Assembly (NCBI GenBank): GCA_018668255.1
Contig: JABISZ010000038.1
Span: forward strand, 1-64,000
Direction: 5' to 3'
Source: Pseudomonadota bacterium
GTDB taxonomy: Bacteria; Pseudomonadota; Gammaproteobacteria; Ga0077536
DNA: 64,000 nt
Shown here: positions 3,717 through 49,355 of the stretch, piece after piece
Position numbering within the stretch: the first letter of the stretch is position 1
Layout of the letters: each line of letters starts with the position of its first letter
The notes under the pieces: generated by a model
Told to the model about the DNA's origin: nothing
Databases searched by the model: none
The model's input: the letters and a program-made list of their open reading frames with translations, nothing else
Made by a program: the position numbers and the translations under genes

Positions 3717-5525
3717 ATGCGAGCTAAAAAATCGAATTTATTTTCTGTCCTACTAAATACAATTGTGGGGTTGGTATTAGCTAGTTTGGTCAATGTGTCT
3801 TTTGCAGCGGAATTAAAACTGCCGTTTCAAGAGGAAAAAAAGTCTGTGCGTAAGTTTTTGCCTCCGGAGCAGGCTTTTGGATTGATAGTTAAGCAGTCTA
3901 ACAGCCAGGCCTCATCGCTACACTTTGAAATTGCACCTGGATACTACATCTACAAACAAAAAATCGGTGTAAACCCACGAAATAAAAAAATAGAACTTTT
4001 AAGCCTTCAGCTCCCTTTAGGCGAATTAAAGGAAGATGAATTTTTCGGAGAATCTGAAATTTATCGCAAAAGCTTAGCTTTTAGTCCAACTTTTTCTAAT
4101 TCCTCTCTCGGAGATACTTTTGAGGCGGAAATTTCTTATCAGGGGTGCGCTGAAAATGGGATTTGCTACCCTCCTACAAAGAGAATGGTTTTATTGAAAA
4201 CTAGCAGCAATAGTGTCGCTCAAATGGAGAAGAGCTCTTCAATAACGCAGAGAATTGTGACGCAGCTGCATCAGAAATCATTTTTTTATGTATTGTTTGC
4301 TTTTTTTGTTTTTGGCCTATTGTTGTCTTTTACCCCCTGTGTTTTGCCTATGATTCCTATTTTGTCGGGAATTATAGTTGGGCGGACGCACTCGGGTGAA
4401 GACAGTAAGGCCTTACCTTTGTCCATTTTTTACGTTTTGGGTATGGCATCGATGTATTCTCTTATCGGGGTGGCTGCAGGATTTTTAGGGTACAGCTTTC
4501 ATTTATCTTTTCAAAAGCCTCCGGTTGTGATTCTCTTTTCGTTAGTGTTCGTTATTCTGGCATGCTCCATGTTTGGGCTGTTTAGACTGCAAGTCCCTTC
4601 TTTTATCAGTCGTCGGCTTGACGCGGCAAGTCGGAAACAGACTTCAGGGACTTACTTTGGAGTTTTCATGATGGGATTGATCTCCGCATTAATCGCAGGA
4701 CCGTGTTTGGCGCCGCCGTTAGCTGCTGCAATGACTTTTATTAGCCAAACAGGGTCACCAATCACGGGTGGGGCTGTTCTCTTTGTGATGGGGCTTGGGA
4801 TGGGTGTGCCGCTTATTGCCATAGGAGCCTCGGCCGGCTTTATACTGCCAAGAGTGGGTGGGTGGATGGAGCGAATAAATCAGCTTTTTGGTTTTATTTT
4901 TATATCTGTGGCTATAGTATTTTTAGAAAGAGTTGCCCACCCCAGCATACTATTTTCTTTGTGGTTATTGTTGCTGTTGGCATTTCTGATATGGTTTGGA
5001 TTGATAATTCATAAAACTAGTTTAATGTCTCGCCGCCCACAACTTAAATGGCTGGTGATGTCGTGTTACGCAATGATTTGTGGGTTTGGTCTATATTTTT
5101 ACTTGAACGGATCGCCTAGTCTCAGAACTTCATCAGACTTTGCGGAGAGCGAGCAAAATCAGGTGAGGTATCTATCTGTCTCTGAACTAACTCAATTACA
5201 AGCAGCTATTGATGCTTCAGTTGACACTGATCAGATTGTGATTTTGGATGTCTATGCCGATTGGTGTGTGGAGTGTCGGCACTTAGAAAAGAAAACATTT
5301 GAGCAGCCGCTGGTGCGCAGTTGGTTGAACGAGAATCAACTATTGAGATTTGACGTGACGGACAACAACCAAATGGATAGGAAATTTTTATCTCAATTTA
5401 TGTTATATGGACCGCCGGCTGTGCTCTTCTTTAAAAAGGGTAAAGAGGTAAGCGAATCGCGGACGATAGGTTTTGTAGATGCGAAGGAATTTTTGGAAAT
5501 CATAAAACAGGTTGAACAGAAGTGA
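3717..5525 (+). CDS. dsbD: thiol:disulfide interchange protein DsbD
   Basis: DsbD carries electrons from cytoplasmic thioredoxin across the inner membrane to periplasmic DsbC/DsbG and cytochrome c maturation proteins. From the ATG at 3717 the protein has 602 aa. A signal peptide (about 1-30, ending VSFA before AELKLPF) is followed by the alpha domain with C144 and C150 in GCAENGICYPPT, a polytopic beta domain with C208 (FTPCVLP) and C330 (AGPCLAPP), and a C-terminal thioredoxin-like gamma domain with CVEC at 517-520. All six functional cysteines are present. The open frame extends upstream to 3579 over fxsA, but only the 3717 start gives a sensible signal peptide. Its stop overlaps the next gene by 4 nt. 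Confidence 0.95.
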   Translation: MRAKKSNLFSVLLNTIVGLVLASLVNVSFAAELKLPFQEEKKSVRKFLPPEQAFGLIVKQSNSQASSLHFEIAPGYYIYKQKIGVNPRNKKIELLSLQLPLGELKEDEFFGESEIYRKSLAFSPTFSNSSLGDTFEAEISYQGCAENGICYPPTKRMVLLKTSSNSVAQMEKSSSITQRIVTQLHQKSFFYVLFAFFVFGLLLSFTPCVLPMIPILSGIIVGRTHSGEDSKALPLSIFYVLGMASMYSLIGVAAGFLGYSFHLSFQKPPVVILFSLVFVILACSMFGLFRLQVPSFISRRLDAASRKQTSGTYFGVFMMGLISALIAGPCLAPPLAAAMTFISQTGSPITGGAVLFVMGLGMGVPLIAIGASAGFILPRVGGWMERINQLFGFIFISVAIVFLERVAHPSILFSLWLLLLLAFLIWFGLIIHKTSLMSRRPQLKWLVMSCYAMICGFGLYFYLNGSPSLRTSSDFAESEQNQVRYLSVSELTQLQAAIDASVDTDQIVILDVYADWCVECRHLEKKTFEQPLVRSWLNENQLLRFDVTDNNQMDRKFLSQFMLYGPPAVLFFKKGKEVSESRTIGFVDAKEFLEIIKQVEQK

Positions 5526-6180: not shown

Positions 6181-6618
6181 TTGCATAGCGTGCTGTTTTT
6201 AAATGGGCCGAATTTAAATCTACTGGGACGCAGAGAGCCTGAGGTCTATGGGCAGCTGTCACTTAGCGAGCTGAATAATCTTATGGTGGATAAAGCTAGC
6301 AGATTGGGCTTAGCCATAACAACTTATCAAAGCAACATTGAAGGTGAGTTGGTTAACCGAGTGCATAAGGCTAAGTTAGATGACGTTGATTTTATTGTCA
6401 TTAACCCTGGGGCTTATACGCACACAAGTGTTGCGATAAGAGATGCATTTTTAGGAACAGAAATCCCATTCATAGAAGTGCATTTATCCAATATCTTTTC
6501 GCGTGAATCTTTTCGCCACCAGTCTTACCTTTCAGACATAGCTATTGGTGTTATTTCGGGCTTCGGTGCTCATGGATATGAACTGGCGCTGCAAGCGGCT
6601 GTTGAGCAGCTCAGTTAG
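6181..6618 (+). CDS. aroQ: type II 3-dehydroquinate dehydratase
   Basis: Catalyses 3-dehydroquinate to 3-dehydroshikimate in the shikimate pathway. The 145-aa size is typical of the dodecameric type II enzyme. Active-site features are NGPNLNLLGRREPEVYG near the N-terminus (R18, Y23), NPGAYTHTS around 75-83 and H101 in EVHLSN. The start is TTG at 6181, supported by AGAGGGAG 7 nt or so upstream and by the conserved N-terminus. It lies directly upstream of accBC, the usual gammaproteobacterial arrangement. Confidence 0.95.
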   Translation: MHSVLFLNGPNLNLLGRREPEVYGQLSLSELNNLMVDKASRLGLAITTYQSNIEGELVNRVHKAKLDDVDFIVINPGAYTHTSVAIRDAFLGTEIPFIEVHLSNIFSRESFRHQSYLSDIAIGVISGFGAHGYELALQAAVEQLS

Positions 6619-7132: not shown

Positions 7133-8476
7133 ATGTTTAATAAAGTATTAATTGCTAATCGTGGAGAGATCGCGCTCAGAATCCTTAGGGCATGTAGTGA
7201 ATTAGGTATTAAAACTGTGGCTGTTCATTCCGACGTGGATCGTGATCTGCAGCATGTCCGTTTGGCAGACGAGTCTGTTTGTATTGGCCCAGCGGCGCCT
7301 AATCTGAGCTATTTAAATGCACCAGGTGTCATTGCAGCTGCTGAATTAGCTGATGTTGATGCCATCCATCCTGGCTATGGCTTTTTATCTGAAAATGCAG
7401 ACTTCGCGGAGCAGGTAGAGCGCAGTGGCTTTGTCTTCATTGGGCCGAAAGCTGAGACAATGAGGATTATGGGCGACAAGCTATCGGCCATTCAAGCAAT
7501 GAAGGAGGCGGGTGTCCCTTGTGTCCCTGGCTCAGGGTGCGCGCTGGGCGATGATCCGGATGCAAATCTAGCGATGGGACGGGAGATAGGTTATCCAATA
7601 ATGATTAAGGCCTCCGGCGGCGGCGGCGGCAGAGGCATGCGTCCCGTGTTTGAAGAAAAGTCGCTTTTGGAGTCTATTGCTCTAACGCGTTCAGAGGCTG
7701 GTGCTGCTTTTAATAATGATAGTGTCTACTTAGAAAAGTATTTAGAGCACCCTCGTCATATTGAGATCCAAGTTCTTGCGGATAATTTTAGCAATGCTAT
7801 CCATCTAGGAGAAAGGGATTGTTCGATGCAGCGTCGGAACCAGAAAATAATAGAAGAGGCCCCTGCCCCAGGAATATCTAAAGAAATGCGGAACGAGTTA
7901 GGAACTCTTTGCGCCGAGGCCTGTAAACGAATTGACTATCGAGGAGCGGGTACCTTTGAGTTTCTCTACGAACACGGCAATTTTTATTTTATTGAAATGA
8001 ATACGCGAATACAGGTAGAACACCCTGTAACAGAAATGGTTACGGGTATCGATTTAGTAAAACAGCAGCTTTTGATTGCCGCGGGTCAGCCTCTGGCATA
8101 TGAGCAAAAGGACATCACATTAGCGGGACACGCTATTGAGTGTAGGATAAATGCAGAAGATCCCTATACCTTCCTCCCTTCTCCAGGCAATATTCGATCG
8201 TACCATGCAGCAGGAGGGAGAGGGGTTCGAGTTGACTCACATATTTATTCTGGCTATGCCGTTCCGCCAAACTATGATTCTCTGATTGGGAAATTAATCT
8301 GCCATGGCGACGATCGACTTGAAACAATAGCTAGAACTCAGAACGCTCTGAGGGAATTTGTTTTTGAGGGGATAAAAACGAATATACCTCTCCATCAAGA
8401 TCTACTTTCGAATGAGGATTTCCGAAAGGGTGGAGCTGACATCCACTACTTAGAAAGACTTCTTGATAAGGGTTAA
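7133..8476 (+). CDS. accC: acetyl-CoA carboxylase biotin carboxylase subunit
   Basis: Carboxylates the biotin of AccB using bicarbonate and ATP. The 447-aa ATP-grasp protein has the N-terminal [10 protein letters not shown]116 and K159 for ATP binding, the glycine loop GGGGGRGM at 162-169, CSMQRRNQK at 230-238, and [13 protein letters not shown] at 286-298 with the catalytic arginine region. Everything expected is intact. It is the second gene of accBC and prmA starts 5 nt after its stop. Confidence 0.97.
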
Positions 8477-12337: not shown

Positions 12338-13627
12338 ATGAAAGTATTGATTATCGGCGGCGGCGGAAGAGAGCACGCCCTAGCATGGAAGTGCGCGCAA
12401 TCACCGTTAGCAGATTTGGTTTTTTGTGCACCCGGCAATCCTGGGACTAGTTATGAAAAGCTAGTTAAGAATGTTCCAATTGAAGCAGATGAAACTAGTT
12501 TGCTTGTGGATTTTGCGCAGGCTGAGAAGATAGACCTTACTATCGTTGGTCCTGAGGCGCCGTTGGCGGCTGGGGTCGTAGATGCCTTTGAAGCTGCAGG
12601 TCTGCTTTGTTTCGGGCCTACGAAACAGGCAGCCATTTTAGAAGCCTCTAAATCTTACACCAAGGATTTTTTAAAACGCTACGGGATCCCATCTGGAGAC
12701 TACGAAGTGTTTGTTGATATAGATAGTGCCGTAGATTACATAAATAGCGTTCCTATACCTGTTGTTGTGAAGGCTGACGGCTTGGCCGCTGGTAAAGGAG
12801 TAGTGGTAGCTGTTACCAGAGATCAGGCTCTCAAGGCTGCTCATGATATGTTGGAGGAAAATGCCTTCGGAGATGCGGGTGCGAAAATCGTTGTAGAGGA
12901 ATTTCTGACAGGGGAAGAAGCCAGTTTCATTTGTATGACTGACGGCGTTACGGCTATACCTTTTGCGTCTTCACAAGATCATAAGGCACGAGATGAGGGC
13001 GACAAAGGCCCCAACACCGGAGGGATGGGGGCGTATTCTCCGGCGCCGATTATTGATGATGAGATGGAGCAAGAAATAATTCGTACTGTTGTCCTGCCTA
13101 CACTAAAAGGAATGCAGCAGGATGGTCGTCCCTATAAAGGGTTCTTATATGCTGGTCTTATGATTGGTGCTGACAAAGTGCCAAAGGTACTAGAATTTAA
13201 TTGCCGTTTTGGCGATCCCGAAACACAACCAATCATGTGCCGGTTACTCTCAGACCTTGTAGAGTCTTGCTTGCAAGTATTACAAGGTGATGCCGACAAG
13301 GTTGAATTAGAATGGGATTCTCGAGCTGCTTTAGGTGTAGTTATGGCGGCAGGCGGTTATCCTTTTGACTATTCGAAAGGTGATGTCATTTCGGGATTAG
13401 AGAACGAAACACCTAATACAAAAGTTTTTCATGCGGGCACCAAAGTCAACGAAGTGGGATGTGTTACTTCAGGAGGTAGAGTCTTGTGTGTGGTAGGCTT
13501 GGGCTCCACTGTTGAGGCGGCTCAGGCGGAAGCTTACGCTCGAGCCGGCAATATAGATTGGCCTGGAAAATTTTTTCGCAAAGACATCGGTTATCGAGCG
13601 GTACTAAGAGAACAGAATAAGAGTTAG
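12338..13627 (+). CDS. purD: phosphoribosylamine-glycine ligase
   Basis: GAR synthetase; joins glycine to phosphoribosylamine with ATP in purine synthesis. The 429-aa ATP-grasp enzyme shows the N-terminal GGGGREHALAWK, GPEAPLAAG at 71-79, the ATP loop VKADGLAAGKGVVVA from 144, the GPNTGGMGAYSPAP segment and EFNCRFGDPETQ. It follows purH and overlaps the end of hisH on the other strand by 4 nt, so the two operons converge with no intergenic terminator space. Confidence 0.97.
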   Translation: MKVLIIGGGGREHALAWKCAQSPLADLVFCAPGNPGTSYEKLVKNVPIEADETSLLVDFAQAEKIDLTIVGPEAPLAAGVVDAFEAAGLLCFGPTKQAAILEASKSYTKDFLKRYGIPSGDYEVFVDIDSAVDYINSVPIPVVVKADGLAAGKGVVVAVTRDQALKAAHDMLEENAFGDAGAKIVVEEFLTGEEASFICMTDGVTAIPFASSQDHKARDEGDKGPNTGGMGAYSPAPIIDDEMEQEIIRTVVLPTLKGMQQDGRPYKGFLYAGLMIGADKVPKVLEFNCRFGDPETQPIMCRLLSDLVESCLQVLQGDADKVELEWDSRAALGVVMAAGGYPFDYSKGDVISGLENETPNTKVFHAGTKVNEVGCVTSGGRVLCVVGLGSTVEAAQAEAYARAGNIDWPGKFFRKDIGYRAVLREQNKS

Positions 13628-16019: not shown

Positions 16020-17108
16020 TTATCTAATACCATTTTCAATCAGAACTTTTCTCAACCCTTTGATGGCTGGAAAGACTTCATTATTAGAATCGCAATCGTT
16101 CTCGTCAAAGGCTTTTTGCTCTAGCTCACAGATAACTCTGTCTTCGGCAAAAATCCCGTTAGTGAACCAAATAATAAATGGCCAAAACATATCAAGTAGG
16201 AAACCCATCTTTGGCCGTTTGATCATCATTAGACCAAAGGTATGATTTTTTTTATTATCCTTATCAATTGGAACATAAATATTCCATAGATCAAGCGCCG
16301 GTTCTTTGCTGCCTGCGGTCCAAAATTTGAGAGTTTGATAAGGGTATTCGGTTCTGATAGTCATCAGATCTCGCTCACCTGCAGCAGCCTTGGGCCTGTC
16401 ACCTAGCATGAACTTTTCACCGAGCGGTTGTGAGCCACTTGCTCGGGTGAAGGTATAGTCTGCTTCGAACCAATTTTTTCCTTCTCGCATACCTAAGAAC
16501 ATCGTTTTTATTCCACCCATGAGCTTTCTATGAAGAAACTGGTGGTTCATATCCATTAGGTTTTCATGCATAAAAGTATAGTGACAGTCGACTTTTCTAT
16601 TCAGGTATCGCGTTTTATATTTCGGGTTGTCCGCAGAAGGGAGATTGGGGAACATTGCGTCTTCCATTTTTTCAGGATCACCTGGAAATATAAAAAACAG
16701 GCCGTAAGCCTCGCGAGAGGGATAATGGCGCACTTGGTTCCGTTTTGTTTTACTGCTATCAAGATATGGAATACTTATACATTTTCCTTGAGCATCGTAT
16801 ACCCATCCGTGATAGCCGCATTTTAGAGTACACCCCGCTACTTTTCCGATATCGAGCGGTACTTGGCGGTGAGCGCAACGATTTTCAAGCGCAAAAGCCT
16901 CACCATTTTTTGGACGGACAAGCACAATAGGATCTCCGGAAAAAGTCACCGCAAGTGTTTTACCTAATTTAAGATCTTTTGAGCGCGCTACCGGATACCA
17001 AAAGTTTGGATCGATGCCTGTTTTGCGTATATCAGCTATCTCACTGCCAAAGTCTACTTCGGTGATTCCAGATGACTCGTTAATTTTAGGGGATGATTCA
17101 ATAGACAT
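16020..17108 (-). CDS. Rieske-type ring-hydroxylating oxygenase, alpha subunit-like
   Basis: A 362-aa Rieske non-haem iron oxygenase. The N-terminal [2Fe-2S] ligands are C78-x-H80 and C97-x2-H100, and the catalytic domain has the mononuclear iron site around D186, H189 and H193 (ENLMDMNHQFLH). The length and layout fit the VanA/demethylase-like or sterol-ring oxygenase groups, which act as monooxygenases or O/N-demethylases. No signal peptide is seen. No ferredoxin-reductase component lies next to it, so the electron donor must be elsewhere. Its minus-strand neighbour at 17165 is a flavodoxin-like protein. The substrate is unknown. Confidence 0.83.
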   Translation of the reverse strand: MSIESSPKINESSGITEVDFGSEIADIRKTGIDPNFWYPVARSKDLKLGKTLAVTFSGDPIVLVRPKNGEAFALENRCAHRQVPLDIGKVAGCTLKCGYHGWVYDAQGKCISIPYLDSSKTKRNQVRHYPSREAYGLFFIFPGDPEKMEDAMFPNLPSADNPKYKTRYLNRKVDCHYTFMHENLMDMNHQFLHRKLMGGIKTMFLGMREGKNWFEADYTFTRASGSQPLGEKFMLGDRPKAAAGERDLMTIRTEYPYQTLKFWTAGSKEPALDLWNIYVPIDKDNKKNHTFGLMMIKRPKMGFLLDMFWPFIIWFTNGIFAEDRVICELEQKAFDENDCDSNNEVFPAIKGLRKVLIENGIR

Positions 17109-40807: not shown

Positions 40808-40972
40808 AAATTTGCTCGCACTCCCAGTACTTTTTCGTATAAATATAGCGTATAGACTCCCAGCTATCACTGCAGGGCTTCTGTTTTGATCAGATTACAA
40901 TATTTTAAGCCAGTTTTCTTGCTCTAAGTGTTAACCTTATGCCTTACGGCTAAAAATGTTGGGTACATTAAT

Positions 40973-42427
40973 ATGATGCGTTTTTTAAAGTGTTTTGTGC
41001 TGTTAGCGATGTTTGTGTTTTGCAAATTTGGTAGTAGCCAAGAGAATATTGATTTACCTGACTTCGGTGATTCTGCTGGGGCAATAATTTCGCCGGAGCA
41101 GGAGCGTAAACTTGGCGAAAGTTTTGTGCGTCAAATGAGAAAGGTAATGCCTCTCGTAGTCGACGAGGAGGTTGAGGACTACATAAGGGGTCTTGGTGAG
41201 AATTTAGCTGAAGATGCTGGCTATTATGGCGACTTTCAGTTTTTTGTCGTTGATAGCCCTGTCATAAACGCATTTGCTGTACCAGGTGGGTTTGTAGCCT
41301 TTCATACTGGCTTGATATTAGAAACTGCGCATGAAGCTGAGCTCGCGTCTGTGATGGGACATGAAATTGCTCATGTAACGCAACGACACGGGGCCCGAAT
41401 GATAGAAGCGGGTACACGAATGAATATGCCAGCTATCGCAGCTATGTTTGCCGCGATAGCTTTAACGGCGGTAAATCCTGAGGCCGGAATGGCGGCTTTA
41501 ATGGCTACGCAGGCTGCATCGCAACAAATGCAGATTAATTTCACTCGAGCGAATGAGAAAGAAGCAGATTCAATAGGTATCCGATTAATGGCAGATGCTG
41601 GCTACGACACATCAAAAATGGCGACATTTTTTGAGAAAATGATGAGAGCTAGTCGCTATAGTGATCCTGCCTACATCCCCGAATATCTGCGTAGCCACCC
41701 TATTACGATCAATCGAATATCTGCCGCATTTAGTCGAGCAAAAACCGTACGACCTGAGATAGTGAGGGAAGATAGCTATAGCTATCACTTGGTAAAAGCC
41801 AAGCTGAAAGTTCGTGCTGCCGCTGATCCTGCTCAAGCTGTCAGAGCTTTTGAGTCTATATTGAAGGATCGCAGATACGTCTATGAGGAGGTGGCCCATT
41901 ACGGTTACGCCTTGGCATTAACAGAAGCGGGTAATTTCCGTAAGGCCAGAGTGGAGGTTGAAAGCTTAATAAGACAGTTTCCGACAGTGGTCCCATATAG
42001 GATCGCGGCGGGTGCGCTCGAAAAAAGAGCTCGTAATTACCCTAGATCAGCTGCTAGTTTCAAGAGTGCTTACGAGCTGGAGCCGGAGAACCGCGCGGCT
42101 GTTTATGGGTATGTTGACGCATTAAATACACTAGGCAGACCAGAGCATGCCAAGAACATCCTTAGCGAGTACGGGCTGTCTGATAGGAGAGATCCAAGGT
42201 ATTTTAATCTCTTAGCGCAAGCAGAAAATTTACTAGGACAGAAGGTTAAAGAGCATTCAGCGTTGGCTGAATACTACCTTAGCGTAGGTCAGTTCCCCCA
42301 TGCCGCGGAGCAGCTCCGGCTGGCCAGACGGACCAAGGGCTTGAGCAATTATCAGCGGCAAAAGCTTCTTTACAGGCTGGATGAGGTCGAGCAGATCATT
42401 TTGGATTTGGAGGACCCGCGTCGATAG
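40973..42427 (+). CDS. BepA-like M48 metalloprotease with TPR domain
   Basis: A periplasmic zinc protease and chaperone of the BepA/YfgC type, which assists or degrades outer-membrane proteins such as LptD. From ATG 40973 there are 484 aa: a signal peptide (about 1-23, ending GSSQ), the zinc motif HEIAH at 130-134 in VMGHEIAHVTQRHGARM, the third ligand glutamate in NEKEADSIG, and TPR-like helices from about residue 280 to the end. Two adjacent ATGs (40973, 40976) are equally possible. It is the last normal gene before the tRNA-derived left boundary. Confidence 0.9.
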   Translation: MMRFLKCFVLLAMFVFCKFGSSQENIDLPDFGDSAGAIISPEQERKLGESFVRQMRKVMPLVVDEEVEDYIRGLGENLAEDAGYYGDFQFFVVDSPVINAFAVPGGFVAFHTGLILETAHEAELASVMGHEIAHVTQRHGARMIEAGTRMNMPAIAAMFAAIALTAVNPEAGMAALMATQAASQQMQINFTRANEKEADSIGIRLMADAGYDTSKMATFFEKMMRASRYSDPAYIPEYLRSHPITINRISAAFSRAKTVRPEIVREDSYSYHLVKAKLKVRAAADPAQAVRAFESILKDRRYVYEEVAHYGYALALTEAGNFRKARVEVESLIRQFPTVVPYRIAAGALEKRARNYPRSAASFKSAYELEPENRAAVYGYVDALNTLGRPEHAKNILSEYGLSDRRDPRYFNLLAQAENLLGQKVKEHSALAEYYLSVGQFPHAAEQLRLARRTKGLSNYQRQKLLYRLDEVEQIILDLEDPRR

Positions 42428-42458
42428 ATTTTTTATGCTTTAAAAAGATTCTTAAAAT

Positions 42459-42515
42459 TGGTGGGCTGTGGAGGATTTGAACCTACGACCATCGGATTAA
42501 AAGTCCGGTGCTTTA
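42459..42515 (-). pseudogene. partial tRNA-Lys (3' part), island left boundary
   Basis: A 57-nt copy of the 3' portion of tRNA-Lys, in the same orientation as the intact gene at 48706-48781. It runs from the 5' side of the anticodon stem through the TTT anticodon, variable region, T arm, acceptor 3' strand and CCA. There are three internal differences from the intact gene at 42467, 42471 and 42513, and 41 nt (42472-42512) are identical. The D arm and acceptor 5' strand are missing, so no functional tRNA can be made. It is best read as the duplicated attachment half of an integrated element. Confidence 0.9.
42472..42512. repeat. attachment-like direct repeat, left copy (41 nt)
   Basis: Identical over 41 nt to 48719-48759 inside the tRNA-Lys gene; distance 6,247 bp. 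It contains the anticodon loop and T-arm 5' part, regions that tyrosine recombinases commonly use as crossover sites. Direct orientation fits excision or integration rather than inversion. Confidence 0.88.
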
Positions 42516-42598
42516 TATTTTCTAATATTATATAAGCTATTTTTTATTAATAAAATACAGGCACAAGTGTTGGTGAAATTGAAAAAAAGGAAAGTACC

Positions 42599-44290
42599 TT
42601 GAACGAGAAAATGTTTGGGCTGATTCGAGGGTTGTTCCTCATACTTCCTTTTTTTGTTTTTTTTAGCACTGTAACCGCCGACCTATCTGAAAGTTCTTCC
42701 GAGACCATCTACATCAATGGGCGAATCTATACGGTAGATGATGAACGTCGATGGGTTGAAGCCATGGCAGTTACTGGAGCTGTTATCAGTGCGGTTGGAA
42801 GCACTGCTGATATGAAGTCGATGGCTGGAAAGTCCACGCGGGTTATAGATCTGCAAGGAAAGATGGTGATGCCTGGCATCCATGATGCACATACCCACCT
42901 ATTGCATGCAGGTCTAAAATGGACTCACGAGTGTCGCCTTCCTCCCAACGCTGGGCGCGATGCAATATTAGAAACGCTGCAAGGTTGCTCCGAACAAAGT
43001 GAGGACGACGATTGGATAGTAGCAGGGGATTACAACCCAAATATACCAGGCAATGAAAAACTTGATAGGAAATTTTTAGATCAAGCGTTCCCGGATAAAG
43101 CCATTTACATCTACGATTTTACAATTCATCACGCTTTGGTTAACTCAAAGGCCTTGACTTTGGCAGGGATACATTCGGGAACGGCTGACCCGCCGGGAGG
43201 AAAGGTAGTTAAAGATATTGTTACTGGTGAACCGACGGGCGAACTTATTGAAATGGCTACAGCACTGGTCTCTCGTGTAATCCCTCCGTATGATGCTGAA
43301 ATAAACGGGAACGCCTTGCGTTATTCAATAGCCCGCTGTCATCAGTATGGCATCACTTCAGTTCAAGAAGCTTCCGGTACGCCCACACTACTTCAACTCT
43401 ATAACGAATTTGATCATAGTCAAGAGCTTAATCTCTTTGTTATGACGCATATTGTGTGGGGTAGTGAAAAATGGGGAGACGAAACGGTTTCGGGTTTAGA
43501 TGATCTAATAGCAGCGCGCGACAAGTTTTCAAGTCGTCACGTAACAACAAACGCTACTAAGGTTTGGATGGATGGGGCACCGCTTCCTCCTCACTTTACA
43601 CAAGCTGGCATAGAGGCTACAAGCGATGGAGTTCAACTAGATAAGCTTCTATTTGATCAGAAGCGATTAGCAGACAAGCTGACTGAGTGGAGTCAACTGG
43701 GCATAAAACCAAAAATTCATGTCGCCGGGGCAGGTTCGGTTCGAGTAGCGTTGAATGCAATTGAGGATGCGTACCGAGGAGTGCCGACGCAAGTTCCGCG
43801 TCCAGATTTGGCACATAGCAACCTCATATCCGAGGTTGATGTCGAACGATACGCGAAGCTTGGAGTGGTCGCGGAGATGTCTCCAGCCATTTGGCACTAC
43901 GGTCACGTGGAGGGCTTCGAAGTGGTCGATGATTGGTGGCCATTTGCATCTTTGCTTGCTGCGGGTGCGCACATTACGATTGCATCTGATTGGATATTGC
44001 CACCAAACCCGAATCTATTTCCGGCTCTCGCGGGTGTGATTTCGAGACCAAAAGAATCTGTTGGTTTGGCTGATGCAATTGAGATGATGACTCGCAATGG
44101 CGCTGTTAGCGTAGGGCAGTTTGACCGATTCGGCAGTATTGAAGTAGGCAAGCTTGCCAATTTTATTGTTTTAGATCGTGATCTTTTTGCGATTAAAACG
44201 AGCGAGATTGCCACCACTAATGTTCTGATGACAGTTTTTGAAGGGAAAACAGTTTATTTAAATGCCATAGCATCTCCCAAATGGCGATGA
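42599..44290 (+). CDS. exported YtcJ-like amidohydrolase
   Basis: A 563-aa amidohydrolase of the YtcJ/amidohydrolase_3 group. This group includes N-substituted formamide deformylase (NfdA) and many uncharacterised exported hydrolases. A Sec-type signal (about 6-27, FGLIRGLFLILPFFVFF, then TVTADL) precedes the composite domain. The metal motif HDAHTHL has H98 and H100, IHHALVN lies further on, a possible metal-bridging lysine lies near TKVWMDGAP, and TIASDW holds the late aspartate. TTG start with AAAGGAAAG upstream. It is the first gene inside the island, 84 nt from the tRNA fragment. The substrate is not evident. Confidence 0.85.
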   Translation: MNEKMFGLIRGLFLILPFFVFFSTVTADLSESSSETIYINGRIYTVDDERRWVEAMAVTGAVISAVGSTADMKSMAGKSTRVIDLQGKMVMPGIHDAHTHLLHAGLKWTHECRLPPNAGRDAILETLQGCSEQSEDDDWIVAGDYNPNIPGNEKLDRKFLDQAFPDKAIYIYDFTIHHALVNSKALTLAGIHSGTADPPGGKVVKDIVTGEPTGELIEMATALVSRVIPPYDAEINGNALRYSIARCHQYGITSVQEASGTPTLLQLYNEFDHSQELNLFVMTHIVWGSEKWGDETVSGLDDLIAARDKFSSRHVTTNATKVWMDGAPLPPHFTQAGIEATSDGVQLDKLLFDQKRLADKLTEWSQLGIKPKIHVAGAGSVRVALNAIEDAYRGVPTQVPRPDLAHSNLISEVDVERYAKLGVVAEMSPAIWHYGHVEGFEVVDDWWPFASLLAAGAHITIASDWILPPNPNLFPALAGVISRPKESVGLADAIEMMTRNGAVSVGQFDRFGSIEVGKLANFIVLDRDLFAIKTSEIATTNVLMTVFEGKTVYLNAIASPKWR

Positions 44291-44328
44291 AACAACTAAC
44301 TTTTAACAGTGAGTAAATAATATAAAAG

Positions 44329-44715
44329 GTGGATGTATTGAATAAGTCGACAATGAAAGAAAAACATGTTCTTGTTTGCACGTGGAGCCCTAATGAAAAA
44401 TGGAAAGGATTGTCTGATGTGGAGAAACGAGAATTTTTGACTGCTGTTGCAGTTAGTGCAGCGAGCGCTAAAAAGGGTGGCATGGATATTCTCGGCTGGG
44501 GTGCACTTGATCGGGCTGTGTCCAATCCGGCACCTCAAAGTTTTTGTGGCATCTTCGCCGTAGATAATCGAGATAGCTTACATGCTGTTGACCAAGCGAT
44601 CGAACTATGCGGGTGGTATGAATATTTTGATCACGTCAATGTTGGTGCTCAATTGCATGGTCAAAATGGCATAGAGGCAACTGATGCCTTATGCAACCTT
44701 TTGGGTGTAATGTGA
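44329..44715 (+). CDS. small DUF6616-like protein
   Basis: A 128-codon frame (GTG 44329; TTG 44338 or ATG 44353 are alternative starts, and AAAAGG at 44324 best serves TTG 44338). The sequence has GGMDILGWGALDRA and AIELCGWYEYFDHVNV, which resemble the small alpha+beta-barrel-like proteins I remember as DUF6616. No catalytic function is known to me. It sits between two exported enzymes and has no signal peptide itself. Such dimeric ferredoxin-like folds often act as small isomerases, cyclases or monooxygenases in catabolic clusters, but nothing here proves that. Confidence 0.6.
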   Translation: MDVLNKSTMKEKHVLVCTWSPNEKWKGLSDVEKREFLTAVAVSAASAKKGGMDILGWGALDRAVSNPAPQSFCGIFAVDNRDSLHAVDQAIELCGWYEYFDHVNVGAQLHGQNGIEATDALCNLLGVM

Positions 44716-44796
44716 CATTGAAGAATGATCGAGAGCTAACTAGCGAGTAATCTACTTTAGATTAAACACATGCTTAATACTTGGGGGTGGATTTTC

Positions 44797-46194
44797 ATGG
44801 ATAGACAACGACGAAAATTTATTAAAAAGACAGCGGCTGGCTTGATTGCAGCACCAGTATTAGCGTCGTCCGCTTCGAACATTGCTTCGGGTAAAGAGTC
44901 GGTAGACACCATCGTCATTGGTGGTGGTTTTGCAGGAGTAACCGCGGGACGAGAGTTGAGCGCACGAGGCTTAAATACGCTCGTGCTAGAGGCGCAGCCT
45001 CGAATGGGAGGTCGAGTACTGACATTGCCTTTGGCCGGGCACGATATAGATTTAGGCGGGACTTGGGTGGGTTGGTCGCAACCGCACGTTTGGACCGAGA
45101 TCATGCGGTACGGCCTCTCTATTGATGAGACAGCAGCAGTCAATGCGGAGACAGCTATCTGGTTCGATAATCAAAAACGAATAGAAGGTAGCGCAGAGAC
45201 TTATGCTGAAATATTTGAGCGAGCCGCGGGAGTTTTCTACGGTCCGGCACGTGAAGCTTTCCCAAGACCTTTTGACCCGTTATATGCCAAAGGTTTTGGG
45301 CATCTCGATGCGATGAACCCAGTCGACGCGATCAATAAGTTGCAATTGAGCCAGGTCGAGAAAGATATGATGCTGTCGCTTGCAGGCATCAACGCGCACG
45401 CACCTCCAGTGCAATCAAGCTATTTAGATCAACTGCGATGGTTTGCTTTAGGTGATTTTGACGTGTGGAATATGTGGGATAATCTTGGGCGCTATCGTAT
45501 TAGTGGCGGAGCTGAAAAGTTATTGCAAAGGATGCAAGGAGACAGTGGGGCTGAGTTTCTATTGGATTCCCCAGTGAAATCCATTATTAGCGATGAAGGA
45601 ATAGTAACCGTCACAACTAATACTGGAAAGGTTTATCATGCGCGCGCCGCAGTGGTTGCAGTTCCGTTGAACTGTTTGGGTGATATCGAATTTCAGCCTT
45701 CTCTTGGGGCTGTGAAAAGTCGAGTGAGTAAGGCGCGACATACTGGATCGGGTACTAAAATTTATGCTCGCGTTAAAAATGTGAAAGCTCCTGTGATGTG
45801 CCAAGGAACGATAGACATGCCACTCAACTTTTTATGGACAGAGTATGTAGATGACGATAGTCAGATTTTAGTTGGGTTTGGAACCAGCGATAAGTTACTC
45901 GACATTAACTCTGAAGCAGCTGTTCGGCGCGCGATTAAAAGTTTTCTACCGGAGGCTGAGTTACTTGAGTTTTTCACTTACGACTGGAACGCGGATCCTT
46001 ACTCGAAGGGCACTTGGTGCATGTATCGCCCTCATGTTTTGACGGAGGATTTTAAACAGTTACAGGAAAATCAAGAGAACATATATTTTAGCGGCGCGGA
46101 CATTGCCTATGGTTGGCGTGGTTTTATTGATGGCGCTATCGAGAGCGGTTTACGGGTAGGTCGTGAAGTGGCTGATGGTTTGAAGAAAGGATAA
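44797..46194 (+). CDS. Tat-exported flavin-dependent amine oxidase
   Basis: A 465-aa FAD oxidase of the monoamine-oxidase family. The N-terminus MDRQRRKFIKKTAAGLIAAP is a twin-arginine signal (RR at 5-6, then hydrophobic), so the folded holoenzyme is probably exported. The dinucleotide-binding motif is VIGGGFAGVTAGREL (about 40-54), followed by GGRVLT, and the C-terminal FAD motif is YFSGADIAYGWRGFIDGAIESGLRVG. It would oxidise an amine to an aldehyde or imine with release of ammonia and H2O2. ATG 44797 has GGGGGTGG upstream and gives a clean Tat signal; the frame itself opens at 44770. Confidence 0.85.
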   Translation: MDRQRRKFIKKTAAGLIAAPVLASSASNIASGKESVDTIVIGGGFAGVTAGRELSARGLNTLVLEAQPRMGGRVLTLPLAGHDIDLGGTWVGWSQPHVWTEIMRYGLSIDETAAVNAETAIWFDNQKRIEGSAETYAEIFERAAGVFYGPAREAFPRPFDPLYAKGFGHLDAMNPVDAINKLQLSQVEKDMMLSLAGINAHAPPVQSSYLDQLRWFALGDFDVWNMWDNLGRYRISGGAEKLLQRMQGDSGAEFLLDSPVKSIISDEGIVTVTTNTGKVYHARAAVVAVPLNCLGDIEFQPSLGAVKSRVSKARHTGSGTKIYARVKNVKAPVMCQGTIDMPLNFLWTEYVDDDSQILVGFGTSDKLLDINSEAAVRRAIKSFLPEAELLEFFTYDWNADPYSKGTWCMYRPHVLTEDFKQLQENQENIYFSGADIAYGWRGFIDGAIESGLRVGREVADGLKKG

Positions 46195-46555
46195 TGTTGA
46201 GATTAAGAACTCTGAAATGGACTTTATTGAATAAAAAATGAATGGTTTTACTAGTGTTATGTGTCTGCTCGGCTTTATTTGTCTGTTCTTAGCCCCGTTT
46301 ACAGGTCTGACTGTGGGTAGGAGCAGTAGCGTTTTTCGTTATTGAGTGGATATTGAGTAACAGCTAGGACAGTGGCTATTATAGCGGTAATCATTTCAAT
46401 CTCCGTCGAAGGTTTCTTGTCCATCCCAGACTTCGCTCTTACCACAAAAACAATAGAAAAATTAAGTCCGCGTGGGTGAAACATTAATGTAAAATTGACG
46501 TAGTACCTTAATTAGTTGAGATAAAAATCGTGACTGCTGTTAAAAACCTTCCCCA
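46195..46555. other. 361-nt gap in the island
   Basis: No convincing gene. A 35-codon ORF at 46238-46345 (plus) encodes a hydrophobic peptide (MNGFTSVMCLLGFICLFLAP start) but has no clear ribosome-binding site. A 61-codon frame on the minus strand (46299-46484) shows no known features. A GTG at 46530 begins a short frame reading MTAVKNLPHC that overlaps the start of the next gene in another frame, which may be a relic of a frameshift. Confidence 0.5.
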
Positions 46556-47626
46556 TTGCGTAAACCTATTCCTCCAACTAGTAAATCATCAATCGATGCC
46601 CGAAAACTATTTCCAAGCATGAAAGTTGAGGTAGACAGTGCGACTGTTGCGGTTGCCGATCTATATCACAATTGGCTTACAGGATTGGTTTTGGGATTGG
46701 TTACGCATAAGGGAAAAGAAATTGCTGCGAAGTTTGTTTTCAAGCTTTTCCGACACCAGCATCACAAGAATTTTCTTCCCGGTCTGAAGAAACTAAATCT
46801 TTCTCACTTACCTGACGCTGTTGCTGCCGCACAGTACCATTATTTTTCTAATCAACTGGGTGGTGTCAAAGTCGAGTATCTGAAGATTTCCGATCGGAAA
46901 GCTTGGATACGATACCCTCCCCCAAGATGGATTTGGGCGGGCACTGCTATTTGCGGTATCCCGAAAGAGGTTAATAATGAAATGATGTATGGGTGGCATG
47001 CTCACAACGGTGTTTCCCTTGGGAATCCTAAGCTTGGATTCGTATGCACCAAAACAACGGTTGAAGGCCAACCTGGCTTAGAAGGCTACTACTTAGAATA
47101 TGATCATGACTTAACCAAACGTGAGCGTTTGCGTTTCTCTCCTAATGAGTCTTGCCCGTACATAGATACGAATACATTACCAACCCTCGACTACGAATCA
47201 TGGCCTGAAATTAGACAATCTAAGGCATATAGAAATTATTCAATGGAGTATGTTCGGAATGCATTGCCTATTCTAGTGGAACTGTTAGGCGAGAAAGAAG
47301 CTTTGAAAATCGGTGGCTTAAGTGCACGGCAAATAGGCATGCACTGCTATGATCGCATTGCAAGTGAGGCTGGCTTAACTGGTGATAAAGTAGCAGATTT
47401 TCTCGATTTACTGGAATTCATCCTAGCTGGCTCCGGAGATACTTGGGTTAGAGAAAAAACCAGCATTAAAGTGGGCGCACCTGCTAGGATATCGAAAAAT
47501 CTCACCGTATCCGAGACGATCCAAGAGCTTCTCAATGCACCTTTAGAAGGTCTCCTTGCGACGCACAATCGTTTTCTGAAATTAGATCGTGTAAAAGCCG
47601 ATACCCTTAGTATTATAAAGCGCTAG
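46556..47626 (+). CDS. unrecognised 356-codon island protein
   Basis: I do not recognise this family. The frame starts at TTG 46556; the first ATG is 46619 (M22). No signal peptide is apparent. Visible features are a basic helical segment with FRHQHHKNFLPGLKK near 67-81, a central aromatic-rich part with RKAWIRYPPPRW and YGWHAHNGVSLGNPKLGFV (about 114-165), and a helical C-terminal third with MEYVRNALPILVELLGEKEAL. The middle may be a ligand-binding or small catalytic domain. No catalytic triad or cofactor motif is evident. Its place between an amine oxidase and an NTF2-fold gene suggests a linked metabolic role. Confidence 0.7.
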   Translation: MRKPIPPTSKSSIDARKLFPSMKVEVDSATVAVADLYHNWLTGLVLGLVTHKGKEIAAKFVFKLFRHQHHKNFLPGLKKLNLSHLPDAVAAAQYHYFSNQLGGVKVEYLKISDRKAWIRYPPPRWIWAGTAICGIPKEVNNEMMYGWHAHNGVSLGNPKLGFVCTKTTVEGQPGLEGYYLEYDHDLTKRERLRFSPNESCPYIDTNTLPTLDYESWPEIRQSKAYRNYSMEYVRNALPILVELLGEKEALKIGGLSARQIGMHCYDRIASEAGLTGDKVADFLDLLEFILAGSGDTWVREKTSIKVGAPARISKNLTVSETIQELLNAPLEGLLATHNRFLKLDRVKADTLSIIKR

Positions 47627-47953
47627 GGTCTAAGTCAGGACCTGATGCGCTAACCTCTCGTAGGCCAGTGTTTATAGATTATCAACGGCGTGTTTGCTTC
47701 CCCGACGAAGAAATTATCATCAGATGAGATGAGAGGAATAGAAGACTTTTAAAGCTTTTGAAAACTAGCGACGTTAGGAGTAAGCATCTGCAAGACCTAG
47801 AGTTGGCGGTCGCAAAGGACTACCTAAGACATCATTGGATAGGATTCAAAGGGTAGAAATTATTCACTCTTATACTTGAGAGGCGGAACTAGCTAAAGTA
47901 AGTTTATTCGCATAATAATACTGGTCTATATCGGGAATAGAGGAGACAGGCTT
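47627..47953. other. 327-nt gap in the island
   Basis: No full gene. A stop-free stretch of 42 codons (47728-47856, plus) reads KHLQDLELAVAKDYLRHHW in its second half and lacks a start codon. It could be the end of a decayed gene, but I cannot link it to any family. The last 70 nt before the next gene are AT-rich and could hold its promoter. Confidence 0.4.
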
Positions 47954-48454
47954 ATGGATAAAATCACTGAAGTTCAAGCTCGATTTGCGATTGAGGAGCT
48001 ATTCGCACAATACGCTCATACCATCGATAGTTATGACGTCTCTGGTTGGGTTAATTGCTTTACTGCCGACGGAGTTTTCGAAGTCGCCGGAGAGGAGGAC
48101 GATAGTGTGAGATTTACTGGACACAAACAACTAACTGTCTTTGCGCAAGCACATGTTCGTCTTCTACCCGGCACTCGTCATGTTATGACAAACCATGTAA
48201 TAGAATTTGAGAATGAAACATCTGCGCGACATAAGTGTGTATTGAGTGGAACGCTAAGTAGACCTGAGTCGGTCTATGTATTTGCTTCCGGTTGGTACGA
48301 GAGCAGCGTCGTATTGGTAAATGAAGACTGGAAAATCAGTCATAGAAAGGTTTACTTGGATAATGCGGAAGCCATCGGAGTAGAGCCGTTAGCGTCGCAC
48401 ATGCAGCCGATGATTGGTTGGATAATGGAGAACGGCAAGGCCGCAAAAAACTAA
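47954..48454 (+). CDS. SnoaL/NTF2-like domain protein
   Basis: A 166-aa protein of the NTF2/SnoaL-like fold. The N-terminal ITEVQARFAIEELFAQYAHTIDSYDVSGWVNCFTADGVFEV is the usual alpha-helical start with the tyrosine and aspartate residues that line the cavity. Members are small isomerases, dehydratases, cyclases or the beta subunits of ring-hydroxylating oxygenases. A clear Shine-Dalgarno (GAGGAGA) precedes ATG 47954. It is the last gene before the tRNA-Lys boundary and has no signal peptide, so it acts in the cytoplasm. Confidence 0.82.
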   Translation: MDKITEVQARFAIEELFAQYAHTIDSYDVSGWVNCFTADGVFEVAGEEDDSVRFTGHKQLTVFAQAHVRLLPGTRHVMTNHVIEFENETSARHKCVLSGTLSRPESVYVFASGWYESSVVLVNEDWKISHRKVYLDNAEAIGVEPLASHMQPMIGWIMENGKAAKN

Positions 48455-48705
48455 AAACCCAAGCGCTACAATCTATGAGGCGCGCATTATTCTTGCTTTT
48501 ATGATTTAGCGCTTTTAAAGTCGATTTAGGGCCGTCGCGTTGACGATCTGGCTGGACGTATTTGGAGTTTGCTTATCTAAATTCTTTATTGTGGGGCTTT
48601 GCTCAAGAACGAAATGCTATGATTTAAGTGATCTGAAGAAAACCCTTTTATATCAGGATACCTCGTCGAGGTACTTGAAACTTAGGGAATTTAATTGAAG
48701 AGTAA

Positions 48706-48781
48706 TGGTGGGCCGTGTAGGATTTGAACCTACGACCATCGGATTAAAAGTCCGGTGCTCTACCAACTGAGCTAACGGCCC
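48706..48781 (-). tRNA. tRNA-Lys(UUU)
   Basis: A complete 76-nt tRNA with encoded CCA on the minus strand. The acceptor stem GGGCCGT pairs with ACGGCCC, the D loop contains AGTTGGTAGA, the anticodon loop is CTTTTAA with TTT, and the T arm has GTTCAAATCC. It matches the E. coli tRNA-Lys layout, including the GGGxCGTTAGCTCAG 5' end. Its 3' end faces the island, whose far edge holds a truncated copy. Confidence 0.97.
48719..48759. repeat. attachment-like direct repeat, right copy (41 nt)
   Basis: The counterpart of 42472-42512, lying inside the intact tRNA-Lys gene. It is identical over 41 nt. Homology extends with few mismatches to the CCA end (48706) on one side and stops at about 48762 on the other. 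Confidence 0.88.
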
Positions 48782-48916: not shown

Positions 48917-48959
48917 AAGTAGGCCAAGTGGATTTTATCGAAGTAGGCCAAGTGGATTT
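48917..48959. repeat. short tandem duplication, period 24 nt
   Basis: AAGTAGGCCAAGTGGATTT occurs at 48917-48935 and again at 48941-48959 with 5 nt between. Only two copies exist. It lies in the gap between tRNA-Lys and fmdB, upstream of the fmdB start by about 64 nt. It may be a recent slippage duplication. Confidence 0.75.
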
Positions 48960-49022: not shown

Positions 49023-49355
49023 ATGCCAATTTATGAATATCAATGCCAAGTATGCGGTAATAAGTGCGAAATTATGCACCGTATGAGTGAGGGGCCGTCA
49101 AGAGATTGTAGCGAGTGCGGATCGGCTAACTTGAAAAAATTGATCTCTGCCGTAGGGTTTAAATTGAAAGGGACTGGATGGTATGAGACCGACTTCAAAC
49201 ACAGCGGAAGCGATAAAAACAAAGACGAGGGGAGTAAAACCTCAGGAAAAGAAAGTTCTTCTTCCGAAGATAAGAAATCTAGCGGTACAAAAAATGAGAC
49301 TACAGGTAAATCCGCGAGCGTTAAATCCAGTAGTGTCGCAAAGTCGTCCGAATAA
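49023..49355 (+). CDS. FmdB family zinc-ribbon protein
   Basis: A 110-aa protein with an N-terminal FmdB/CxxC zinc ribbon: MPIYEYQCQVCGNKCEIMH with C8 and C11, then C29 and C32 in RDCSECGSA, and GFKLKGTGWYETDF. The tail from about residue 65 is low-complexity lysine/serine-rich. Such proteins often precede aspS; the role is unknown, with early links to formamidase regulation. No membrane segment. Confidence 0.88.
   Translation: MPIYEYQCQVCGNKCEIMHRMSEGPSRDCSECGSANLKKLISAVGFKLKGTGWYETDFKHSGSDKNKDEGSKTSGKESSSSEDKKSSGTKNETTGKSASVKSSSVAKSSE

Follow-up and report, generated by a model that had tools for sequence, protein, structure and literature searches.

An integrase-less gene block beside tRNA-Lys(UUU), probably the eroded and refilled remnant of a P4-type integrative element

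The window, by which we mean the whole 64,000-nt stretch of DNA analysed here, comprises positions 1 to 64,000 of contig JABISZ010000038.1 in the gammaproteobacterial draft assembly GCA_018668255.1. It contains a block of five genes between an intact and a truncated copy of a tRNA-Lys gene. The intact gene, tRNA-Lys(UUU), is the only tRNA that ARAGORN found in the window (anticodon ttt in the DNA; 48706–48781, minus strand), and the block lies on its 3' side. A repeat search identified a same-orientation copy of its 3' part at 42459–42515 (minus strand), which is cut in the D-loop. The direct repeat thus formed with 48706–48762 is 57 nt long, with 54 of the 57 positions identical (95%), a longest identical run of 41 nt and a spacing of 6247 bp. 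With the tRNA-Lys as query against the whole genome, the fragment was matched at E = 1e-19, and hence it is not a chance resemblance. The Rfam tRNA model gave it 28.1 bits, just under the cut-off of 29, as fits a damaged tRNA. The two copies form the ends of the block, the intact gene resembling attL and the fragment resembling attR among attachment (att) sites.

None of the open reading frames between the tRNA-Lys and the fragment matched a recombinase in profile searches. Furthermore, a six-frame PF00589 search of the window's own genome (G000, a draft of 106 contigs) detected six integrases (tyrosine recombinases), none of which is on the window's contig. A first-pass annotation of this DNA had described an intact tRNA-Lys with a 57-nt copy of its 3' end, an island lying 3' of that gene, and an interval without integrase or transposase; the searches bear out all of this.

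The block is bordered on the left by a conserved neighbour, a bepA-like gene encoding an M48 protease (40928–42427), and on the right by an fmdB-family zinc ribbon gene (49023–49355) followed by aspS. Both flanking genes and all five genes of the block are on the plus strand. The first gene encodes an amidohydrolase of 563 amino acids (aa), read from a TTG start (42599–44290; Amidohydro_3, Pfam PF07969, E = 8e-73). It is followed by a DUF6616 protein of about 121 aa (44350–44715; PF20321, E = 3e-23) and a flavin amine oxidoreductase of 474 aa (44770–46194; PF01593, E = 1e-49). The fourth gene encodes an orphan 335-aa protein (46619–47623), which with its 3' region forms a module (46612–47753); in the relatives G001 and G003, a module adjoining tRNA-Gly matches it at 93% identity. 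The fifth encodes a SnoaL-like protein of 166 aa (47954–48454; PF13577).

These genes were compared with six congeneric genomes, of which G000 is one, and with 30 other genomes of the family; all are drafts and several are incomplete. No congener has an amine oxidase such as that of the block, and the family search found one other genome with a homologue, at 59% identity. The SnoaL-like protein is 93% identical to the product of a gene beside fmdB in G005, where aspS is only ~69% identical, and 78–81% identical to proteins in genus g4. Moreover, a C-terminal piece of the same gene, 94% identical, lies in G003 about 0.6 kb 3' of tRNA-Met (L150, 6364–6674). The homology with the SnoaL module of G005 begins at 47858–47892 (plus strand), at the end of a dispersed repeat (RE, described below). 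The orphan 335-aa family occurs in all six congeneric genomes and, at 40–64% identity, in two other genera. No other copy of its module was found in G000 outside the window. The protein had no sequence match in Pfam, NCBIfam, PHROG, PADLOC or PDB and no viral relatives; its structural model is mediocre (pLDDT, the predicted local distance difference test score, 69) and gave no significant fold match. By these comparisons the cargo is a mosaic of genes with separate histories, and the SnoaL identities together with the absence of the amine oxidase from congeners point to a horizontal origin.

The site itself varies among relatives. In G001 and G003, the two nearest relatives, whose aspS proteins are 95–98% identical to the window's, the sequence is collinear with the window up to 42455–42457 and again from 48674. 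The second collinear part takes in the 3' flank of the tRNA-Lys (48674–48705, minus strand; 95% by blastn) and the tRNA-Lys itself, which is identical in G001 and, together with its flanks, near-identical in G003. Between these points, an unrelated 2.2-kb gene for a flavin adenine dinucleotide (FAD)-dependent oxidoreductase replaces the five genes of the window. No tRNA fragment was found between bepA and fmdB in either genome, and a decayed tRNA-Lys fragment sought in G001 was not significant (205/1000 shuffles). In G002 and G004 (aspS ~69% identical), bepA ends 106 bp from an intact tRNA-Lys, which thus lies towards bepA, with the cargo past its 5' end. This cargo differs from the window's in G002, where it lies between tRNA-Lys and fmdB; G004 has other cargo after tRNA-Lys, and its fmdB is on another contig. 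G005 carries its SnoaL gene just before fmdB, without a tRNA between them. Every congener that spans the site holds some cargo between bepA and fmdB, and none is an exact empty allele. Two genomes of genus g4, G008 and G022, have the plain order bepA, tRNA-Lys, fmdB, with 15 and 45 bp before the tRNA and 301 and 212 bp after it, respectively. Because the contents differ among congeners and the order is plain in genus g4, the stretch between bepA and fmdB is an insertion hotspot of this genus, and the empty order occurs outside it.

It is highly improbable that the block is an artefact of assembly or binning, i.e. a chimera joined through tRNA sequence. G000 is a fragmented draft, and its tRNA-Gly locus is broken over contigs C77, C8 and C15 at the place where G001 has the 335-aa gene. 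However, several junctions within the block do not consist of repeats, the fragment is flanked by distinct sequences of its own, and the same SnoaL gene stands beside fmdB in G005, an independent occurrence.

On the island side, the fragment adjoins an AT-rich sequence (42516–42556, minus strand). These ~41 nt recur on contigs C73 and C40 of G000, each time directly beside a tRNA-Lys-like 3' piece. At C73 the full 57-nt piece is present, with a clearly different tRNA-Lys-like sequence; at C40 the anticodon loop and the D-arm side are kept, and the 3' side is not recognisably tRNA. Agreement among the window, C73 and C40 copies starts at the anticodon loop (TTAAAAG) and extends into the tail, but their 3' halves differ; a crossover would leave this pattern, simple decay would not. 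Beyond the tail, C73 and C40 are 89% identical over 250 nt, through AGTAGACATATAGTAGACA, a direct repeat with an 11-bp period, into RE. The window copy of the tail ends before the 11-bp repeat. Rfam matched the C40 unit to no known RNA. Scans of viral sequences and of genomes for the tail pattern yielded either nothing or only four matches, all in Bartonella and without tRNA sequence at the match, and these were set aside. In G000, tRNA-Lys-like 3' pieces with this tail, the 11-bp repeat and RE lie at 4186–4492 of L099 (minus strand) and 3723–4042 of L134 (plus strand), one after an AraC-type gene and one after speD, and neither adjoins an intact tRNA-Lys.

Repeats with the same 11-bp period accompany integrases at other tRNA genes. 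The pattern AAAGTAGACA-N4-GTAGACA occurs five times in the six congeneric genomes, against none for the reversed control. Two of the five sites are the tRNA-Lys-like tails at C73 and C40, and another lies 62 nt 5' of the intact tRNA-Gln of G000. The other two lie between a tRNA-Gln and a P4-type integrase, on contig C13 of G003, where the tRNA-Gln has a decayed 3' half, and on contig C35 of G004, where it is intact. In G000 and G004, tRNA-Met is followed on its 3' side by an integrase (Arm-DNA-bind_3 + Phage_integrase) and by TGACCTAC-type repeats with an 11-bp period. Furthermore, a G004 contig and G022 of the other genus hold tRNA-Met fragments that likewise extend over 57 nt and share a tail and this repeat type; in G004, integrase and fragment are on different contigs, which we assume to hold two ends of one element. 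At tRNA-Lys, period-11 TGCATnC pairs are present on the 3' side in G003 (TGCATCC) and on the 5' side in G002 (TGCATAC). We infer that these repeats are integrase arm sites. The term 'P4-type' denotes the domains Arm-DNA-bind_3 and Phage_integrase for the integrases at tRNA-Met and tRNA-Cys, and a phage-integrase profile match plus a similar N-terminus read by eye for the integrase at tRNA-Gln. The tRNA-Gln integrase of G003 was not found in viral contigs.

Two further arrangements at these tRNA genes were recorded. At L142 (253–2093), an integrase adjoins a tRNA-Gln copy with an intact 5' half and a 3' half decayed in place, a mirror image of the window fragment. At L078, in another genus, a tRNA-Met (7174–7250) and a 57-nt 3' fragment (6474–6530) are 700 bp apart, and the tail of the fragment is as in G004.

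The exact repeat found 5' of tRNA-Gln is also carried by the C40 and C73 units (21/21), and cargo of the window recurs at other tRNA-anchored sites. Both would be expected if the block were an active cargo element mobilised in trans by an integrase elsewhere, for example the tRNA-Gln type beside TGTCTAC pairs. We nevertheless consider this very unlikely, as both ends of the window copy lack any such repeat, and relatives yielded no further copy of the complete five-gene block.

Taken together, the block is probably what erosion has left of a P4-type integrative element at tRNA-Lys, now without integrase and refilled with cargo of the clade. An element with a P4-type integrase (Arm-DNA-bind_3 + tyrosine recombinase) would have entered tRNA-Lys through a crossover within the anticodon loop or close to it. 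Of attR, the 57-nt fragment and its AT-rich tail of ~41 nt would remain, and the intact tRNA would be the attL side; the expected end of the element would be the fragment with TATTTTCYAATATTATATA. Later losses would have removed both sets of arm sites along with the integrase, so that the block could no longer excise by itself. Cargo modules passed around in the clade, some of which relatives carry at other tRNA-anchored sites, would then have refilled the space. What survives is not an element with clean att bounds. The first-pass annotation had proposed integration at a tRNA 3' end, had named an empty site in related genomes as a check, and had left the choice between an immobilised, a trans-mobilised and an integrase-deleted element. 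Integration agrees with the hotspot, the strain-specific block, the empty order at family level, the lack of an integrase and the element-side sequence beside the fragment; a single clean element does not agree with the mosaic of the five genes or the absence of arm sites at both ends. The empty site turned up in another genus (G008 and G022) and not as an exact allele among congeners, and among the three fates the integrase-less relic is favoured over mobilisation in trans.

Several results weigh against such a history. In none of the six congeneric genomes does tRNA-Lys have a linked integrase, and 11-bp-period repeats are missing from both ends of the window copy. When 58 flanks were tested for 7-mer repeats with an 11-bp period, five had one and about one was expected from the background, so that the single cases at tRNA-Lys are weak. 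The C73 and C40 tails can be aligned for ~100 nt to the sequence 5' of the intact tRNA-Lys in G002 and G004 (0/1000 shuffles), and hence the origin of the tail may be a tRNA-Lys leader instead of a classical phage arm. The leader of the window's intact tRNA-Lys is unrelated to that of G002 (623/1000 shuffles). A tRNA fragment in lineages without the cargo, which the first-pass annotation had named as contrary evidence, is possibly present as a decayed tRNA-Lys-like piece in G004 (2/1000 shuffles) and G002 (70/1000 shuffles), although the signal is weak. Finally, the G+C content of the block (0.42–0.47) equals that of its flanks; compositional foreignness was therefore rejected, and the values fit exchange within the clade.

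The strongest rival explanation is a decayed tandem tRNA-Lys duplicate, which we regard as unlikely. Two copies would have stood between bepA and fmdB in the genus, the copy on the bepA side would have decayed in G000, and the cargo would have entered between the two by ordinary homologous or illegitimate recombination without any site-specific integration. The C73 and C40 units are indeed spaced like a whole tRNA-Lys unit, with 57 nt, ~19 altered nt, a leader of ~72 nt and then the repeat, and the repeat in G002 is 73 nt from the 5' end of the tRNA. The match of the tails to the 5' flanks in G002 and G004 would also be in keeping with duplication, as would the position of the tRNA-Lys in these genomes and the weak tRNA-like remnant beside it. 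In contrast, the 57-nt cut and the 11-bp repeat also occur at tRNA-Met, where an integrase of the right kind stands beside the intact gene. The agreement of the three G000 copies from anticodon loop to tail, with differing 3' halves, likewise speaks against duplication, and so does the dispersal of tail and fragment to C73 and C40.

The leader matches can also be accommodated by a wider scheme, which we offer tentatively and with little confidence. One P4-type integrase family with differing arm repeats (TGTCTAC, TGCATnC and TGACCTAC pairs, 11-bp period) would serve several tRNA genes in this genus, and whole or 5'-degenerate tRNA copies would stand at element ends. Either tRNA copy might then survive as the working gene, on the bepA side in G002 and G004 and on the fmdB side in G000, G001 and G003. 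Small integrase-less cargo modules would shuttle in trans between islands at tRNA-Lys, tRNA-Gly and tRNA-Met. Since the ends would include tRNA copies with their leaders, both the match of the tail to the G002/G004 leader and the mismatch between the leaders of the window and G002 would fit.

Our preferred reading, an eroded P4-type remnant, places the block near several known systems. Like tRNA islands with P4-type tyrosine integrases, it has an intact tRNA at one end, a same-orientation 3' tRNA block at the other and, on the 3' side, cargo that varies. In the genus, integrases with Arm-DNA-bind_3 and direct-repeat arms stand beside the tRNA-Gln and tRNA-Met genes of relatives. Unlike these islands, the block has neither integrase nor arm repeats, and its cargo is mosaic without clean bounds. 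It has the distal 3' tRNA repeat (57 nt, 95%) of a tRNA-targeting integrative element, but without integrase and arm sites it is not an intact one. Flexible genomic island 2 (fGI-2) of the Methylophilaceae is an additive island of aquatic bacteria at tRNA-Lys(ctt) (PMC10872708). It shares with the window recurrent insertion at tRNA-Lys, tRNA pieces before the island and metabolic cargo that varies by strain and species. However, the repeated piece in fGI-2 is the 20-mer ACCAGCTGAGCTAATCCCCC, which by our own reading would be the reverse complement of a tRNA 5' end, whereas the window repeats a 57-nt 3' part. The block works like such a tRNA-anchored additive flexible genomic island, with varied cargo of apparently horizontal origin. 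Tycheposons, as they are presented where PMC10872708 and PMC11389934 cite them, likewise carry cargo at tRNA genes, and tyrosine recombinases stand at several tRNAs in the window's genus. On that description the block is not a tycheposon, because it has no recombinase.

These comparisons suggest that a tRNA island may lose its integrase, its arm sites and most of one att end, while the site remains a hotspot where species exchange genes. Three dispersed tRNA-Lys-like units have tails in common, and two of them also have arm-type repeats; they could serve as handles for tracing integrase-less cargo in drafts of uncultured bacteria.

The repeat RE, into which the C73 and C40 units run, is a dispersed intergenic repeat of ~90 nt with ACCGAAGGGGGCGGGGGCCTTAT...TATACTTGAG, and roughly a dozen copies of it stand alone between genes in the genus. 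Copies were located in L134 (620–709, 3945–4042, 5040–5130 and 9286–9331), L099 (747–832 and 4186–4268), L195, L196 and the window (47858–47892). They often have one orientation along a contig, and RE has no Rfam match. It looked unlike attC, as judged by eye only, with no IntI or attC model run.

Two minor observations concern the surroundings of tRNA-Lys genes. In the window, a perfect 19-nt direct repeat, AAGTAGGCCAAGTGGATTT, with its copies 24 bp apart, lies between tRNA-Lys and fmdB (48917–48959). A second integrase-less block at tRNA-Lys is present in L077, from another genus, where a 47-nt 3' fragment (13090–13136) and the intact tRNA-Lys (16369–16444) are 3.3 kb apart; between them are two open reading frames, one an ATPase by eye and neither an obvious integrase.

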